From Nitrososphaeraceae archaeon (GTDB lineage Archaea; Thermoproteota; Nitrososphaeria; Nitrososphaerales; Nitrososphaeraceae), in the NCBI GenBank assembly GCA_009377575.1, contig WHTU01000017.1:1-55977 (forward strand): a stretch of 55,977 nt of DNA, read 5' to 3'. This document shows positions 9,789-49,290 of this stretch, in pieces (positions within the stretch are counted from its first letter, which is position 1; each line of letters starts with the position of its first letter). The notes beneath the pieces are model-generated. The model made no database searches. It saw only the letters and a program-made list of their open reading frames with translations, and was not told the origin of the DNA. The position numbers and the translations under genes were made by a program.

Positions 9789-12700
9789 ATGGAACAATAT
9801 TATTTCAAGAAGATCTCAAGTCTGACAAAAAATAGAGTTAGTGTCCCGACCTGGAGTCAATATAAACTATATAGCCTAGATCCGCATCTTAGTTACCCAG
9901 GAATGCAGAAGTCGATAAGAACACACTTTGACACGGTACTTGACTCACCGGTAACAGTGAGAAAAATAGCTATATCGGTTGCAGGTGTTCTAGTCGTGCT
10001 AGCAGTCTTCGCTCTGTTGACAACTCGTCAAATTATCTTTTTTGACAATAATCTTCAAACTTTACTTTTTCTATTAGTCGTAATTCTAGGATTTGGAGTA
10101 GGATCTTGGATTCTTTTGGAATACACCAAGAGGACAAGCTCCGCACTCAGAGCTAAATCTCGTTCAATAAACAGAATTCATTGGATAGCAACAATAATAC
10201 AATTTGTGTTACTTGCTATCATGATAATTCTTATTTTTTACAACAGTGTGTATTGTTATAACTATTTCAGCTTTTGCAATACCCCTGTGTCGACGGTTTC
10301 AATTACTGCAATTGCTTCGGCATCGGCCTCAGTAATTCTGGGATTTTTTAGTTATAGATTCTTTTCTTGGTACAAAACAAGCAAACGAAACTACATCCTA
10401 TTTTTTTACGGTTTGGCCGCTGCTGCCCTTTCCATGTCAATTGCCGGAGATGCGATTGACAAGTTTATGGTGGCTGGATTAATTGTGGAAGAACAGTCAC
10501 AAGCGGGTACTGTTCCCGATTCATCGTTTGTTTACGAAAACGTCGAGAAGTATAATGGCGAGGTTCAATATAGGGTCACAAATCCCGAGGGTACTACGCT
10601 GTATGTTGTGTCACCTGAAGATGATGAATTATACTCCTTCATTAACAAGCTGACTTCCTATCCAAGGTATGTTTTCTTGTGGATAAGCACCTGTCTTCTC
10701 CTGCACTTGTACTACCAGAGAACTGGACAAAAGATCACTAAATTTCCCATCACGTATTGGATACTACTTATTATCCCGTTTGTGCTATATCTGGTTGGAA
10801 GTGGACTTGTATTAACTCTCCCAGACGATTCAGACTATAGGTACTATCAGCGGATTATTTATCGAGCGGGCAATATCGGGAGCAGTGTACTCTTTGGTGT
10901 TGCATTCTATATAATAGCTAGAAGAGTACCTTCTGAAAGAGTAAAGGACTACTTGACAATAGCCGCTATAGGAATCACCTTGAGTGGAATTGCCTTTAGT
11001 GTATCTGCATTTCAGCAGACTTACGGGGTCGCTGTTCATTCTCTCGTGTTTTTATCATCTTATTTATTTGCCATAGGCTTCTACGCGTCAGCCGTATTTC
11101 TAACTCAGGACGCAAAATTGCGAGAATCAATCAAGAGATCTGCTCTTGAAGAGTCAAAAATATTGGTAAGTTTGGGGACTTCTCATCTCGAACAAGAGAT
11201 AGAGCGGCGTGTTTTTCACACAGCTCAGAAACAAGAAGAAGATCTCGTCAAAAGAACTGGAATCGTGCCATCCCTCACCCACAGCGAAATGAAACTTTAC
11301 CTATCGAATGTACTAAGTCAGATTACGCTACTTCGGGGCTATGAAGACATAGTTCGTAAAGAGAGAGAAATCCTAGAGTCATCGAAAGAGCTCGTAGCTT
11401 GTCTAAACGTTAGTGGGATTCGCCTAGCATACAACAGCAATTTTGAAGTTTACCAGAAGATAATGCAGGAAAGATTCGCAACTGGAGAACATAAAGGAAT
11501 AAGATTTGTGACCAAGGTCGACAAACACAGTGTAAGCATGATCAAACGGTTCTTGGAAGCGGGGGTAATGGTAAGGCACGTTGATAACCTGCCTCCCATC
11601 GACTTTGCTGTTTCTGATAAGGAGATCGTGGCTAAAGTGCACAAAGTTGAGCGTGAAATGACAGACGAAAAGTTTGATTCTAGCAATCGTGAGACCAGCA
11701 TGGACGTAAAGAACGTTCTAGTCAGCACCGAACAAGCTTATATTGACTATTTTCTTTACACATTCAGTGAGCTTTGGAGCAATGGAACGGATGCAGCAGA
11801 ACGGATTGCATATATAGAACAAGGATTAGAACCGGAATTTATCGACGTGCTAAACGACGGTAAAAAGACGATCCGCATACTTTTGGAACTTGTAGGATCT
11901 ATTCGACAGGAAGCCCAAATATTGGTACCTGATGAAAGAACATTACTTAATTTGGAGAAGATAGGCGCAATCGATCACCTCATAAAAGGCGCCTCGGCTA
12001 ATCACGCTAAAATAAGGCTTGTCTGTCCCAATGCTGAAGGTGAGTCCGATATCATAAAAGGGATAAAAGAGAAAGCACCTGAAATAGAAATTGTAAATGG
12101 AAATAATTCAACATCGCTGATGGTAATTGTGGATAATTCAAGGTTTTTGCGTGCGGAATTAACGAATGCAACCTCTGAGAATTTTGCTGATTCTATTGGA
12201 TTCACGGTATATTCAAATACAAGGCAGAGTGTAGACTCCTTTAGAACCTTCTTTGACTTACTCTGGAAGGAACACATTCTTAATGAGGAACTTAAGAATG
12301 CTGATAAAGTTCAGAAAGAGTTCATAAACATCGCTGCACATGAGTTACGTACCCCGATCCAACCTATTCTAGGTTTAAGCCATGTAATGTACTCCGAGGT
12401 GAAAGATCCGAAACAAAGGCAATTATTGGAAGTAGTTGTGAGAAACGCTAACAGATTGAAGAGACTGACAGACAATATTTTGGATGTGACCAGAATTGAA
12501 AGCAAGAAACTTCGCTTAAACAAGGAAGAATTTAACCTAAGCCAGGTAGCACTCTCTGTGATTGATGAGTACAACAAGATAAACCCGAATAGGAGTGGTT
12601 CTGAAACAAATATCGCTTTTGTCAATAATTTAGGAAATTCTGAATTGGAGCATTTGACTGTCAAAGGAGATTTGAATAGAATCACCGAGGTAATATCTAA

Positions 12701-13004
12701 TCTAATAGATAATTCGCTAAAATATACTAAGGGAGGAACAATAAATGTGAAGGCAAAAAGGCTGAACGGCGAAATGATTGTGAGTATATCAGACACAGGG
12801 ACGGGTATCGACCCACTGATCTTTCCAAAATTATTTAGAAAGTTTACCTCAACATCTGCTCTTGATTATGGGGATGGTGGCACTGGACTAGGCTTGTACA
12901 TTTCAAAAAGCATCATAGAAGCACATAACGGAAGAATTTGGGCGGAGAACAATAGTGACGGCAAAGGTGCAACATTTTCCTTTAGTTTGCCATTAGACAA
13001 CTAG
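9789..13004 (+). CDS. Multi-spanning histidine kinase with two cytoplasmic sensor modules
   Basis: A 1071-residue sensor kinase. Residues 60-440 hold about ten membrane helices with an external loop (235-292) between helices 5 and 6. A coiled region follows, then two alpha/beta modules in tandem (about 515-680 and 681-838), each closing with an F-x-x-LW motif (FSELWSNG, FDLLWKEH). These match modules 2 and 3 of the kinase at 46375-48519 (GEHKGIRFVTKVD/GEHKGLRYITNID; VRHVDNLPP/IRHVGNLPP). The kinase core has the H-box AAHELRTPIQPI (H851), N-box NLIDNSLKY, DTGTGID and GTGLGLY, so it should be active. No receiver lies beside it. The membrane part probably senses an envelope or lipid-phase signal and the modules a cytoplasmic ligand; both are inferred. 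Confidence 0.93.
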   Translation: MEQYYFKKISSLTKNRVSVPTWSQYKLYSLDPHLSYPGMQKSIRTHFDTVLDSPVTVRKIAISVAGVLVVLAVFALLTTRQIIFFDNNLQTLLFLLVVILGFGVGSWILLEYTKRTSSALRAKSRSINRIHWIATIIQFVLLAIMIILIFYNSVYCYNYFSFCNTPVSTVSITAIASASASVILGFFSYRFFSWYKTSKRNYILFFYGLAAAALSMSIAGDAIDKFMVAGLIVEEQSQAGTVPDSSFVYENVEKYNGEVQYRVTNPEGTTLYVVSPEDDELYSFINKLTSYPRYVFLWISTCLLLHLYYQRTGQKITKFPITYWILLIIPFVLYLVGSGLVLTLPDDSDYRYYQRIIYRAGNIGSSVLFGVAFYIIARRVPSERVKDYLTIAAIGITLSGIAFSVSAFQQTYGVAVHSLVFLSSYLFAIGFYASAVFLTQDAKLRESIKRSALEESKILVSLGTSHLEQEIERRVFHTAQKQEEDLVKRTGIVPSLTHSEMKLYLSNVLSQITLLRGYEDIVRKEREILESSKELVACLNVSGIRLAYNSNFEVYQKIMQERFATGEHKGIRFVTKVDKHSVSMIKRFLEAGVMVRHVDNLPPIDFAVSDKEIVAKVHKVEREMTDEKFDSSNRETSMDVKNVLVSTEQAYIDYFLYTFSELWSNGTDAAERIAYIEQGLEPEFIDVLNDGKKTIRILLELVGSIRQEAQILVPDERTLLNLEKIGAIDHLIKGASANHAKIRLVCPNAEGESDIIKGIKEKAPEIEIVNGNNSTSLMVIVDNSRFLRAELTNATSENFADSIGFTVYSNTRQSVDSFRTFFDLLWKEHILNEELKNADKVQKEFINIAAHELRTPIQPILGLSHVMYSEVKDPKQRQLLEVVVRNANRLKRLTDNILDVTRIESKKLRLNKEEFNLSQVALSVIDEYNKINPNRSGSETNIAFVNNLGNSELEHLTVKGDLNRITEVISNLIDNSLKYTKGGTINVKAKRLNGEMIVSISDTGTGIDPLIFPKLFRKFTSTSALDYGDGGTGLGLYISKSIIEAHNGRIWAENNSDGKGATFSFSLPLDN

Positions 13005-43568: not shown

Positions 43569-44279
43569 TTATACCAATCCTTTTCCTGGTAGTTCATGTT
43601 TGAGGATAGGGCTATGCTTTTTTAGTATATCTATAAGAGGGAACCTTCTTCCACCTACTATTTTTATATCAGTATTTATTTTCCCGTCATAGTCGATCTC
43701 TATAATATTGTAAGTATTCTTGGTGAATCCCCTAAATCTAGTTGACGACGCAGTTCCTGCGTATGCAATATCTAAAGTTTCTAGATTCCACAACCACGGT
43801 CTGTGCTTATGTCCACATAGTACCAAATCTACCTTGTTTTGAAGGCAGGTCCTAAGAATATCGCCAGCATCAACGATTACTATCTTGTCTGTACCAGTCT
43901 GTACCTCTCCTTCATCTCTGTCTGGCCTGGCGGTAGCAAGTGTTATGATTATGGTATTATTAAATCTGTAAACATTGGATGGAATGAAAGAAGAATGAGA
44001 AGAAGGAAAGAATTTCTTAAAAAGTAAATAGCCAGTATGACGATAATCATGATTTCCGGGTAGAATTATGACTTTAGGACAAACATCCATAAGCCTTTTA
44101 ATTTCCACACTCGCTTGCCTGAATTGAGAAATCAGTCCTTCATCAGTTAAATCTCCTGTTATTAGTATTACATCTGGTTTTAACTTATTTTTGACTTCAT
44201 TGACGATAGTATCAAAAATCTCTTGTTTGAAATAAGCACCTCCTATATGAAGATCGGATAACTGGACGAGTTGCAGCAT
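43569..44279 (-). CDS. Calcineurin-type metallophosphoesterase
   Basis: A 236-residue enzyme with the full set of metal-site motifs: QLSDLHIGG (Asp and His near the start), GDLTDEG, PGNHDY and CGHKHRP. This is the class III phosphodiesterase/Icc type with two metal ions; targets include cyclic nucleotides, phosphodiesters or UDP-sugars. The start chosen is ATG 44279, right before the first motif. The open frame continues to 44492 with hydrophobic residues and no good promoter, while TTATTATATCATACC lies near 44310-44325 and would serve the shorter form. It is the enzyme one would pair with the cyclase-like gene at 45127, but nothing proves that link. Confidence 0.85.
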   Translation of the reverse strand: MLQLVQLSDLHIGGAYFKQEIFDTIVNEVKNKLKPDVILITGDLTDEGLISQFRQASVEIKRLMDVCPKVIILPGNHDYRHTGYLLFKKFFPSSHSSFIPSNVYRFNNTIIITLATARPDRDEGEVQTGTDKIVIVDAGDILRTCLQNKVDLVLCGHKHRPWLWNLETLDIAYAGTASSTRFRGFTKNTYNIIEIDYDGKINTDIKIVGGRRFPLIDILKKHSPILKHELPGKGLV

Positions 44280-44756
44280 ATCTGTAGTTGTTCTTCCCCT
44301 TAATGTAAGGGTATGATATAATAATGTTGAATAATATAAAGGCAATAAAAATATCAGAGATCCTGTATCACTAATGTGGAGGTCCGGGGATAGTTGACGT
44401 GCATCTAATACAAATATCGATATCAATATTTCTGCTGCTGTGAGCATTGAATCTCCAATCATAACTGTTATTAGCATTGGCTGGAGAGGCAACTGTTAAA
44501 AATAGAAGAATGAACGATACTATAATGGTAGGAGTAGCGATTTTAAGGTGTGCCTCAGCTGTTAACTTCATCCCAAGAAGTTACTTGGCTGTTTTGTTTT
44601 TCTAAGTTAGGATCTATAATGCTGTATCTCTAATCTTAGATATATTCTATAAGAGATCACAAGCCTTGCAAATTACCAAATCGAACAAGTACTAATATCA
44701 ATACTCTTCTATTAGTCGGATGAATAGGATTTGGTATTAACTAGTTCTCTGATATT
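44280..44756. other. Promoter region with an ambiguous reverse-strand frame
   Basis: About 480 bases. On the minus strand 44371-44571 encodes a 66-residue frame with a signal-like helix (ATPTIIVSFILLFLTVA), overlapping the hydrophobic extension of the phosphoesterase frame. Either a small exported protein or a frameshifted membrane anchor of the enzyme; too uncertain to call. Confidence 0.35.
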
Positions 44757-45126: not shown

Positions 45127-46224
45127 TTAAGGTGATTCTAATATCATTGAGTTAATTTTTTCAAGAAAAGGTTCTTTGCCAATTGGTTTTTTAATTATAT
45201 TTTTGTCTGATTTAATTCCAGGTAATAGACTTATTAATTCTTCTGCTGCCTCAAGCGCAGATACAAAAATAATCTTTGTGTCCATATCAATTGATTTCAT
45301 TCGGTAAAATAGTTGAAGTCCATTTAGACGTGGCATTCTAATATCTAGCAATACCAGATCATAATAGGAAGCTTCGCGCTGTGAAAAATGCTTTAATGCA
45401 TCCTCCGAGTTATTTAATGCGTCTACCTTATAGCCCTCAACTTCTAAGAAGGATTTGAATGTCAAAAGAATGTCTGGATCATCGTCTACTAAAAGGATAT
45501 TGCCAGAACTGCTAGAATTCCTAATTAGACTTACTTCTACACCTCTCGATTTATTTATTGATTCGGTATCGTTCAATAGTTGATCCTGTCTTAATCGCAC
45601 GTATTTACTAGCTATGGAATAAATAGGATAAGCTCGTTTTAAATCACCAAGGGAATACTCGCCTGCTACCTTGCATAGATAATCTTCAAGAAAAGAAGAA
45701 GGAAAAGATTTGATGATCTGATATAGACTTCCGCCTACCACCATGGTATTTGGAGTTGCGATACGATTTATCTCTGCGCAAATATTCATAGCCGATCCGA
45801 ACAAGTCACGATTATTACTTCTATTTGATCTAGCAGTATCGCTCCTACCATAATCAGAGCTTATTCTATAACCCACAGGAGGAAGGCCTTCTTCAGACAT
45901 CTTGAAGTTAATAAAATTAAATGCTGCCAACATGGTTATGCCACATTCTATAACGTTCTTGAAAGCGCGTTTATCATTTTTGTTCGATGTCTGAGGGAAA
46001 TAAAGAACTAGACTATCTCCGCCCATCTTTGTGATTAGCGCTCCAAATTTCTTTCCTATAACTGCCATATTATTGATGAATATAGAATAATACTTTCCGA
46101 GTTTGTGTGAAGTTTTAATATTGGTAGTGATCTCTGTCGATCCCACCATATCCACGATGCTTATACAACAGTCTATCGGTTCACCAAAACGTAGTTCGTA
46201 ACCATCTTCTCTTCCGTACGCCAT
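45127..46224 (-). CDS. Class III nucleotide cyclase-like domain fused to a receiver domain
   Basis: A 365-residue signalling protein. The cyclase homology domain covers about 15-205: CISIVDMVGSTEIT (metal Asp D25), KMGGDSLVLYFP (second metal Asp D70), RDLFGSAMNICAEI (D140, N147). In active cyclases N-x3-R supplies the transition-state Arg; here that place is Glu (E151), so cyclase activity is doubtful and a regulatory role is possible. The C-terminal half (about 240-362) is a complete receiver: ILLVDDDPDI, VLLDIRMPRLNG with phospho-acceptor D294, FVSALEAA and KKPIG. It is divergent from the kinase at 46375, so it may be a second target of that kinase. TTTTTATTTTAG about 24 nt upstream gives a leaderless start. 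Confidence 0.88.
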   Translation of the reverse strand: MAYGREDGYELRFGEPIDCCISIVDMVGSTEITTNIKTSHKLGKYYSIFINNMAVIGKKFGALITKMGGDSLVLYFPQTSNKNDKRAFKNVIECGITMLAAFNFINFKMSEEGLPPVGYRISSDYGRSDTARSNRSNNRDLFGSAMNICAEINRIATPNTMVVGGSLYQIIKSFPSSFLEDYLCKVAGEYSLGDLKRAYPIYSIASKYVRLRQDQLLNDTESINKSRGVEVSLIRNSSSSGNILLVDDDPDILLTFKSFLEVEGYKVDALNNSEDALKHFSQREASYYDLVLLDIRMPRLNGLQLFYRMKSIDMDTKIIFVSALEAAEELISLLPGIKSDKNIIKKPIGKEPFLEKINSMILESP

Positions 46225-46374
46225 GTAAACTTACAGGAAATTCTAAAATAAAAAGGCTATTTTTTGCGCCTTATGACATTTTTGTATTATAAACAGAGCT
46301 TTTGATAGATAAATCGCCCTTATATAGCCAATTATGCATAGTACTTATGTTGACACTTTCCAGTTCCCATCAGA

Positions 46375-48519
46375 GTGGTAAAAAAAATGGCTAGGGAAGG
46401 TACTGAGGTTTTCTATGGAGTTGATACAGTTATGAATACGGTATTACAGTTCTTGTTCCAGAGCAGAAGTAGAATCGACGCCTGTGTTGATTACACCAGA
46501 CCTTCATTAGCAATTGACATTGCGATATTGAAAAGAGCATTCGTTGACGCTAGAAAGAGAGGAGTCAAGCTTAGATACGCTACTGAAATTACTAATGATA
46601 ACATCTTTTATTGCAAGCAGATGATGGCAATGGTTGATGAGCTTCGACATTTAGATGGAATTAAAGGAAACTTTTACATTAGTGAAACAGGTTATCTTGC
46701 TCCTGCCACTTTTCATGAAGCAGGAAAACCAGCAGCACAAATCATCTATAGCAACGTCAAAGAAATCGTCGAACACCAAAAGTACGTTTTTGAAACCCTA
46801 TGGAGTAAAACTATTCCTGCAGAGCAAAGAATACGAGAGATCGAAGAAGGAATCATACGTTATGAAACGGTAATAATAGATAACTCAGGTGAGATTATAA
46901 GAGAGATTTCATCTCTTACTGCTAGCTCAAATGAACTTGATACGTGTCTGACCTCAGGTGGGATGCATTATAGTCATAAGTACTTCTTTGACATAAAGAA
47001 AAAACTATTAGATAAACAAAAACGAGGAGAACACAAAGGTCTTAGATACATTACCAACATAGATAACGAAAACCTAGAGCTCGTTAAACTATATCTGGAA
47101 AGCGGGATTAAGATTAGGCATGTAGGAAACTTACCTCCAATGAGTTTTGGCGTTTCAGATAAGAAAGTAGCAGTAACAATAGAGAAGATGGAAAACGGAA
47201 AAGTTGTTCAAAGCCTTCTGTTAAGCAACGAATCCCAATATCTAAAGCACTTTTCTTCCGTCTTTCAACGGTTATGGGAGAGTGGAATTGATGCAGTAGA
47301 CAGAATACGAGAGATTCAAGAAGGAACCGAAGCAGAATTTTATGAAGTTATCACCGACGGCAAAAAAGCAAGTCAGATTCTTGTTGATATGACAACAGCT
47401 ATCCAGAAAGAAGCCCTAATCTTTCTCCCTAACGATAAATCTATGATGAGGATGGATAGACTGGGTCTGATTGATTATCTTGTAAAGGCATCACAGAATG
47501 GAGCGAATGTAAAGATTATCTGTCCATTGTCTAAGGAGAATGCAGAGATTCAGAAAAAAATATCCGAGAATGCCCCAGATATCAGGATACTGCATGGGAA
47601 TAGCTCTCCCTACGGCATGTACATAATTGACCGTGAAAAGTTTCTTAGAGCTGAGCTCAAAAGTCCAGGAGCTGAAAAATTCTCAGATGCAATTGGTTTA
47701 GTAGTATACTCTAATAGAAGAATCACTGTGGATTCCTTTGGATCAGTCTTTGAATTACTTTGGAATGAGCGTATGTTGGTTGAAGAACTAAAAAAAGCGG
47801 ATAGGATGCAAAAAGAGTTTATCAGTATAGCGGCTCATGAATTAAAAACGCCCATACAAGCTATCCTTGGTATGAGTAGCCTATTGAAATATTATCCAGA
47901 AAGAACAGATCAGGTATTAGAAGTAATAAGCAGAAACGCAGTTAGATTGCAAAGGCTTTCTACCAATATATTAGATGCAACGAGGATAGAGAGTCAGACG
48001 TTAAGACTAGAAAAGGAACGATTTGACATCCGTGATTTGATACCTAGTATTATAGAGGATTACAAAGAGAGGATTAAAGACAATACCAATAATAAAGTTG
48101 AATTAATCTATGTTAATGATGCTAACCTTAAAAATAATAATCCCATCGTTGTAGAAGCAGACAAGGAAAGGATAATCCAAGTTATTTCTAATCTCATAAG
48201 TAACTCTATTCAATTTACAAATCAAGGTTATATCTCCCTTAATATAGTTGCTGATAATGATAGTAATGAGGTTATCGTTACTGTGAGAGATACAGGTACT
48301 GGTATCAACCCTGAAATCTTACCAAAACTATTTTCGAAGTTTGTTACGAGATCACAACGCGGTACAGGCTTAGGACTTTTCATTTCCAAGAGCATAATCG
48401 AAGCTCATGGAAGCAGAATCTGGGCTGAAAATAATGTCTTAGATGGACAAGGAACAATATTTTGTTTCACGCTACCCTTGGAAACGAAGGATAGAGTTGA
48501 AGGCGAAAAAGGAGGATGA
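46375..48519 (+). CDS. Cytoplasmic histidine kinase with three tandem sensor modules
   Basis: A 714-residue soluble kinase. Three successive alpha/beta modules cover 9-157, 160-317 and 318-475. Each ends with the same signature, F-E-T-LW/FQRLW/FELLW, and the first two continue with RIREIEEG and RIREIQEG. Within modules, LRYATEIT / LRYITNID and GIKIRHVGNLPP recur. The kinase core follows: H-box IAAHELKTPIQAIL (H488), N-box NLISNSIQF, DTGTGINP, GTGLGLF. There is no membrane segment, so the signal is cytoplasmic. The repeated unit resembles the PLD-like/TrmB-type sensory fold, which is my reading. GTG 46375 or ATG 46387 starts it. The receiver at 48530 follows 10 nt after the stop, and a cyclase-receiver gene is divergent. 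Confidence 0.93.
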   Translation: MVKKMAREGTEVFYGVDTVMNTVLQFLFQSRSRIDACVDYTRPSLAIDIAILKRAFVDARKRGVKLRYATEITNDNIFYCKQMMAMVDELRHLDGIKGNFYISETGYLAPATFHEAGKPAAQIIYSNVKEIVEHQKYVFETLWSKTIPAEQRIREIEEGIIRYETVIIDNSGEIIREISSLTASSNELDTCLTSGGMHYSHKYFFDIKKKLLDKQKRGEHKGLRYITNIDNENLELVKLYLESGIKIRHVGNLPPMSFGVSDKKVAVTIEKMENGKVVQSLLLSNESQYLKHFSSVFQRLWESGIDAVDRIREIQEGTEAEFYEVITDGKKASQILVDMTTAIQKEALIFLPNDKSMMRMDRLGLIDYLVKASQNGANVKIICPLSKENAEIQKKISENAPDIRILHGNSSPYGMYIIDREKFLRAELKSPGAEKFSDAIGLVVYSNRRITVDSFGSVFELLWNERMLVEELKKADRMQKEFISIAAHELKTPIQAILGMSSLLKYYPERTDQVLEVISRNAVRLQRLSTNILDATRIESQTLRLEKERFDIRDLIPSIIEDYKERIKDNTNNKVELIYVNDANLKNNNPIVVEADKERIIQVISNLISNSIQFTNQGYISLNIVADNDSNEVIVTVRDTGTGINPEILPKLFSKFVTRSQRGTGLGLFISKSIIEAHGSRIWAENNVLDGQGTIFCFTLPLETKDRVEGEKGG

Positions 48520-48529
48520 GTAATAGATA

Positions 48530-48928
48530 ATGAATGAAAGAATAAAAGGAAAAAGAATCATGGTAGTAGATGACGAATCTGACCTTACTTTGTTTTTCAG
48601 TATGTCTTTAGAATACTATGGATTCGAAGTTGAAGCATTTAATGACCCTAGAAAAGCGTTGTCAAATTTCAAACCAGATTATTACGACTTGGTCGTTCTT
48701 GATATCAAAATGCCAAATATGGATGGCTTCGAATTATACAAGCAAATACAAAAGATAGATAGTAAGGCTAACGTTTGTTTTCTTACAGCAAGTGAATTAT
48801 ATTATAAGGAGTTTCGAGAGAAAGAATATAATGCATTAGATAAAGATCTATTCATTCGCAAGCCCATTGGAAATGAGGAGCTAATAAAAGAGATAGATCG
48901 CCTAATTGAAGATAAGGAAGATGCGTGA
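48530..48928 (+). CDS. Single-domain response regulator (receiver only)
   Basis: A 132-residue receiver domain: RIMVVDDESDLTLFFSMS, VLDIKMPNMDGFELYKQ (phospho-acceptor D58), FLTASELYYKEF and IRKPIGNEEL. No output domain. It is translated with the kinase before it: a GGAGG lies about 14 nt before the ATG, inside the kinase end. It is probably the direct phosphate acceptor of that kinase, passing the signal by binding partner proteins, as CheY does. Confidence 0.93.
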   Translation: MNERIKGKRIMVVDDESDLTLFFSMSLEYYGFEVEAFNDPRKALSNFKPDYYDLVVLDIKMPNMDGFELYKQIQKIDSKANVCFLTASELYYKEFREKEYNALDKDLFIRKPIGNEELIKEIDRLIEDKEDA

Positions 48929-49014: not shown

Positions 49015-49290
49015 CTATTGCTTTAGCTCCGATTGAATCCATAGATTTTCAAATATAGAAGACAGAACTGTTGATTCACTGTTTGAGTACGTTGCTAAAC
49101 CAACTTCATCTTCATTCTCTTTTTCTTGTATGACTAATGATAGCTCTCTGTATGTTACTATAGTCTTTAGCTTGGTTTGTATCGACCTGACTAAATAGTG
49201 TACCTCGATATGCTGATATTCCAATAACAATTCTCCAGGCTTCTCTTCCGTAGAATAATCTGTGCCGATGAGGAATGTTATGTGTACCAT
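49015..49290 (-). CDS. Solitary sensor-module C-terminal half
   Basis: A 91-residue protein. Its end, EVGLATYSNSESTVLSSI followed by FENLWIQSELK, matches the ends of the third modules of the kinases at 46375 (GLVVYSNRRITVDSF, FELLWNERMLVEELK) and at 9789 (GFTVYSNTRQSVDSF, FDLLWKEHILNEELK). The first half is a beta-type start (HITFLIGTDYSTEEKPGEL) that differs. So it is a stand-alone half module, or the remains of a lost kinase. TATA-like AGATATATTTG near 49317-49325 supports expression. It may bind the same ligand or the same partner; inferred. Confidence 0.7.
   Translation of the reverse strand: MVHITFLIGTDYSTEEKPGELLLEYQHIEVHYLVRSIQTKLKTIVTYRELSLVIQEKENEDEVGLATYSNSESTVLSSIFENLWIQSELKQ

Follow-up and report, generated by a model that had tools for sequence, protein, structure and literature searches.

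Organization of the locus

The window analyzed here is the whole 55,977-nucleotide stretch of DNA, contig C88 of a 3.9 Mb Nitrososphaeraceae archaeal genome in 380 contigs. Three adjacent genes for signaling proteins lie within it, and a phosphoesterase gene adjoins them:

43569-44492, minus strand: calcineurin-like phosphoesterase, 635 bp downstream of CYC-REC on the same strand; start codon uncertain
45127..46224, minus strand: CYC-REC, 365 residues, a cyclase-fold domain and a receiver (ORF call, Pfam, AlphaFold/Foldseek)
46225..46386: divergent intergenic region between CYC-REC and the kinase
46375..48519, plus strand: histidine kinase, 714 residues from a GTG codon; the ATG at 46387 is the likelier start
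48530..48928, plus strand: lone receiver, 132 residues, beginning 10 bp past the kinase stop codon

CYC-REC is composed of a class III cyclase-fold domain (approximately residues 11-206), a linker modeled with low confidence (211-238), and a C-terminal receiver (242-361). The kinase consists of three tandem PLD/TrmB-like sensor modules followed by HisKA and HATPase_c domains. Within the intergenic region, TTATATAG at about 46329, read in the plus direction, appears by eye to be a plausible TATA box. The three reading frames were recovered at exactly the positions given by an earlier, sequence-only reading of this DNA, and its assignment of a signaling locus is borne out by the HisKA and HATPase_c domains of the kinase and by both receivers, all of which score far above Pfam cut-offs.

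A soluble kinase with three PLD/TrmB-like sensor modules

The N-terminal 468 residues of the kinase are three repeats of one homologous module, and a single HMM matches all of them, at residues 21-159, 177-317, and 334-471 (180, 150, and 104 bits, respectively). No membrane segment was found in the kinase, the highest 19-residue hydropathy being 0.96, in keeping with the earlier description of a soluble kinase with three sensor copies. The H-box (AAHELKTP), N-box (NLISN), G1 (DTGTGI), and G2 (GTGLGL) motifs are intact, and the protein would be expected to autophosphorylate.

The AlphaFold model of the sensor part has a mean pLDDT of 90.4 but a pTM of 0.51, and thus the module folds are reliable while their mutual arrangement is not. 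Foldseek relates the sensor to PLDs (E 2e-11) and to TrmBL2 (5bpi, E 5e-9), and among 42 aligned sensors Pfam recognizes PLDc_2 weakly in 32 and TrmB in two. The modules therefore resemble the PLD superfamily and TrmB/TrmBL2 in fold, but differ in that a histidine kinase carries three of them in tandem and in that they lack the HxKxxxxD catalytic motif of PLDs, which is absent from the window kinase and present in only one of the 42 aligned sensors. Its absence leads us to reject a role for the modules as PLD enzymes; no PLD chemistry is expected of them, and by analogy with TrmB we infer that all three are putative ligand sensors. A literature search returned no direct description of such a kinase sensor.

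The same module occurs elsewhere in the window, in two copies on a 1071-residue histidine kinase (9789-13004, plus strand) and in a fragment-like ORF of 91 residues that matches the sensor-module HMM (49015-49290, minus strand). A stretch related to this ORF lies on contig C351 of the same genome, close to a two-module ORF and a further receiver.

The two receivers

Both receivers contain the acidic pair, the phosphorylatable Asp, the Thr/Ser, and the Lys of response regulator receiver domains. In CYC-REC, the residues are D247, D248, D294, S322, and K346, and in the lone receiver the corresponding motifs, assigned by sequence, are DD, LDIKMP, LTAS, and RKP. It had been proposed that one kinase serves both; the two domains are only 37% identical and their first helices differ by eye, so that one kinase need not do so. 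Phosphotransfer from the kinase could in principle reach either receiver.

The cyclase-fold domain and its active site

The AlphaFold model of the window CYC-REC (mean pLDDT 86.7) displays the class III catalytic fold. Its top Foldseek match is the class III cyclase CyaB (3r5g; E 8e-14, TM 0.83 by target), and a profile search of the PDB with the cyclase domain finds CyaB, Cya2, and CyaC. Together with the clear Pfam match to the receiver, this model corroborates the proposed fusion. In the scanned alignment, PF00211 matches 56 of 57 members (best 7.7e-14); the one that it misses is the window copy, whose cyclase domain it fails to recognize.

Alignment with CyaB identifies D25 and D70 as the metal-binding Asp pair, and the substrate-specifying residues K66 and D140 and the catalytic N147 are also present in the window copy. 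These positions are highly conserved over 64 homologues (D25 in 59, K66 in 64, D70 in 62, D140 in 64, and N147 in 62). The spacing of 7 from D140 to N147 is the same as in mammalian C2. The exception is position 151, which the profile alignment places in register with the CyaB Arg of the NxxxR motif that stabilizes the transition state in class III enzymes. This position is Lys in 60 of the 64 homologues, Arg in two, and Glu in two, the last being confined to the window copy and its duplicate on C351 (see below). Lys is likewise found in the third CYC-REC of the genome (contig C110). All 18 further cyclase domains that lack a receiver match also have Lys; six of them come from the same genome, and some are situated within longer proteins. 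Lys is thus the normal residue in these archaea, and Glu is a local change. Relatives also encode cyclase domains inside far longer proteins, of up to about 1,700 residues (L071 3764-8797; L272, L273).

Because Glu occupies the position of the catalytic Arg or Lys, cyclic-nucleotide output from the window copy is doubtful. The earlier label "class III cyclase-like" accordingly holds for the fold and is in question for the product. Lys or Glu in the Arg position is no proof of lowered activity; judged from its sequence, the window CYC-REC may no longer produce cyclic nucleotide.

Two readings would preserve catalysis. In the first, the locus encodes a fully working phosphorylation-controlled adenylyl cyclase, in which the kinase acts through CYC-REC to yield cAMP and Glu is tolerated. 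Asp25, Asp70, Lys66, Asp140, and Asn147 are all retained, as this would demand, but both copies in the genome carry Glu at the transition-state position and PF00211 fails on the window copy alone; we regard this reading as unlikely. In the second, CYC-REC is one subunit of a heterodimer, and its metal-binding half complements a Lys-bearing cyclase in the manner of the mammalian C1/C2 split. Class III cyclase active sites form between subunits, the window copy combines the metal-binding Asp pair with the loss of Arg/Lys, and the C110 CYC-REC and the six receiver-less cyclase-domain proteins of the genome have the Lys that it lacks. However, no Lys-type cyclase gene adjoins the window CYC-REC, and the residues of both half-sites are otherwise retained; we consider this arrangement quite improbable.

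Distribution of the CYC-REC family and its neighbors

CYC-REC homologues are abundant in Nitrososphaeraceae, and public records label the relatives that encode them Nitrososphaeraceae, Nitrososphaera, or Nitrosocosmicus. Across 300 genomes sampled from the whole phylum, full-length fusions (E<=1e-30) were found only in the family of the window and in one genome (G196) from another family of the same order; in that second family, related cyclase domains that have no receiver match are frequent.

We examined 60 CYC-anchored neighborhoods, with genes called mechanically, that contain 64 CYC-REC proteins. A kinase or sensor-module gene is the direct neighbor of 30 of these (16 of the sensor-module type and 14 other kinases). 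Since HATPase_c matches number only 27 in the 3.9 Mb genome of the window, we estimate chance adjacency to a kinase at a few percent at most. On a CYC tree of 65 rows, to which two kinase-anchored loci were added and from which one very long protein was excluded, the kinase-neighbor label is clustered (5 changes vs 10.7 in shuffles). The window and C351 copies group with the CYC-REC of locus L049, from another genus (G012; support 95/74), which is likewise divergent from a three-module kinase. Pairwise distances between CYC-REC proteins correlate with those between their neighboring kinases (r=0.68; 0 of 5000 shuffles as high), which supports a CYC-REC/kinase pairing, though the correlation is confounded by species phylogeny.

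How fixed is the three-gene set?

A complementary set of 40 loci was anchored on related three-module kinases. A CYC gene occurs in two of these (L252 and L235), directly adjoining the kinase in both; most such kinases thus work without an adjoining CYC-REC. In L252, CYC-REC, kinase, and lone receiver are all on one strand, and in L235, which has the same three genes, the contig end truncates the CYC gene. Of the CYC-anchored loci, L049 has the three genes in the divergent arrangement, its kinase being broken into two ORFs. At least two further genomes thus have the three-gene set, in some cases with different orientations. The window kinase has its nearest orthologues in two same-genus genomes (G001 and G004), with sensor regions 83% and 82% identical to its own. 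Both genomes keep the kinase and the lone receiver and are missing CYC-REC; DNA homology with them begins at about 46350 and never reaches CYC-REC. Kinase and lone receiver can thus be regarded as a stable pair, in support of their pairing in the sequence-only reading.

Placed on the kinase tree, the link to CYC requires at least six gains or losses. Together with the differing orientations and the lack of CYC-REC in sister species, this leads us to reject a conserved three-gene operon, and the single fixed unit envisaged by the sequence-only reading finds no support. That reading had also named a lack of conserved co-occurrence across genomes as grounds for rejecting the system; such grounds fall away, since CYC-REC recurs with such kinases in other genera. 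Comparative sequence evidence makes CYC-REC an optional partner of the kinase and lone receiver pair, though one that recurs. It would have become linked divergently upstream of the kinase in the window species, or in an ancestor whose sister lineages lost the link.

These data bear on a third alternative, in which CYC-REC is a coincidental divergent neighbor, the kinase serves the lone receiver only, and another kinase drives CYC-REC. The same-genus orthologues without CYC-REC, the low identity between the two receivers, and the 38 of 40 kinase-anchored loci without a CYC gene favor this view. On the other hand, kinases neighbor CYC-REC far more often than a random gene would, CYC-REC and kinase distances correlate as described above, and a duplication took in the whole unit (see below). 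We consider coincidence somewhat unlikely.

A duplicate unit and selection on its genes

The same genome carries a second copy of the whole three-gene unit on contig C351, with a nucleotide identity of 87% across 3.8 kb. Assembly or strain mixture is an unlikely source of this copy (the contamination estimate for the genome is 2.4%); the duplication would have followed the linkage of CYC-REC. Between the two units, dN/dS is lowest for the kinase (0.13), followed by the lone receiver (0.19), the CYC-REC receiver (0.22), and the CYC domain (0.34). These values show purifying selection on the reading frames, with the cyclase domain the least constrained of the folded domains. Purifying selection on this domain would suit a working cyclase, but it is weaker there than on the kinase. 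A truncated third relative, comprising a kinase end and a lone receiver, is present at G000:C334 (L231 748-2213).

Candidate phosphodiesterase and effectors

The phosphoesterase that adjoins CYC-REC on the same strand would favor a working cyclase, but it scores 24 of 225 bits, far under the cut-off, against the NCBIfam equivalog for CpdA-type cAMP phosphodiesterases and is recognized as generic Metallophos only. No homologue was found in any other fetched neighborhood, and we reject a dedicated cAMP phosphodiesterase. Only two cNMP-binding proteins were found in the genome (contigs C323 and C22; L255, L256), both of which appear by eye to be fused to an FAD/thioredoxin-reductase-like part. 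Such fusions could act as effectors of a working cyclase; they lead us to reject a dedicated CRP-like effector.

Proposed mechanism and relation to known systems

We favor, with a probability of roughly 0.6, a cytosolic two-component or phosphorelay branch whose cyclase-fold output is weak or inactive in the window copy. The kinase would sense something soluble through its three non-catalytic modules, with the lone receiver as its constant partner. Dimerization or activity of the cyclase-fold domain would depend on phosphorylation of the CYC-REC receiver. Most members of the family are probably purine-nucleotide (ATP-type) cyclases in which Lys replaces the transition-state Arg. The window copy, with Glu151, most likely would have weak or no cyclase activity as a homodimer, and its cyclase-fold domain may instead serve as an output that binds a nucleotide or interacts with proteins, or as one subunit of a heterodimer. 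More tentatively, it is possible that Nitrososphaeraceae in general employ phosphorylation-gated nucleotide signaling through NxxxK CYC-REC proteins and soluble PLD/TrmB-module kinases, with the Glu-bearing window cyclase a non-catalytic, nucleotide-responsive output.

Bacterial two-component cyclases, such as the multidomain CyaC of Spirulina, couple a receiver to a class III cyclase domain. CYC-REC does likewise, but in a simple architecture with a C-terminal receiver and a separate soluble kinase of the PLD/TrmB type. It has the fold, metal-binding Asp pair, Lys/Asp/Asn positions, and soluble catalytic domain of Pseudomonas CyaB, Spirulina CyaC, and Synechocystis Cya2, and departs from all three in the C-terminal fusion of its receiver and in the replacement of Arg by Lys (in the family) or Glu (in the window copy). 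A census of archaeal two-component systems described REC-linked output domains, some of them specific to Nitrososphaera (PMC5847659). Like NitrOD2-REC and NitrOD3-REC from that study, CYC-REC is thaumarchaeal and lineage-limited and has its output domain, which also occurs in stand-alone copies, N-terminal to REC; it differs in that this domain has a class III cyclase fold. The word "cyclase" is absent from the main text of the census, where GGDEF is the only nucleotide-cyclase-type output that we found discussed. A 2021 study detected 3',5'-cNMPs in archaea, listed few class III candidates, and presented evidence against archaeal class IV cyclases (PMC8646023); COG2114 was reported from sponge thaumarchaea in another paper. 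Our literature search gave no direct description of the cyclases of these archaea, and no paper describing CYC-REC in Nitrososphaeraceae was found in the literature outside subscription journals or in the census main text.

CYC-REC is thus apparently a large, uncatalogued archaeal cyclase-receiver family. For the enzymes that make archaeal cAMP, the family offers a concrete set of candidates from abundant soil ammonia oxidizers; these proteins are receiver-linked, have the class III cyclase fold, and carry an Arg-to-Lys signature. The Glu variant at the window locus provides a natural internal control for that signature.
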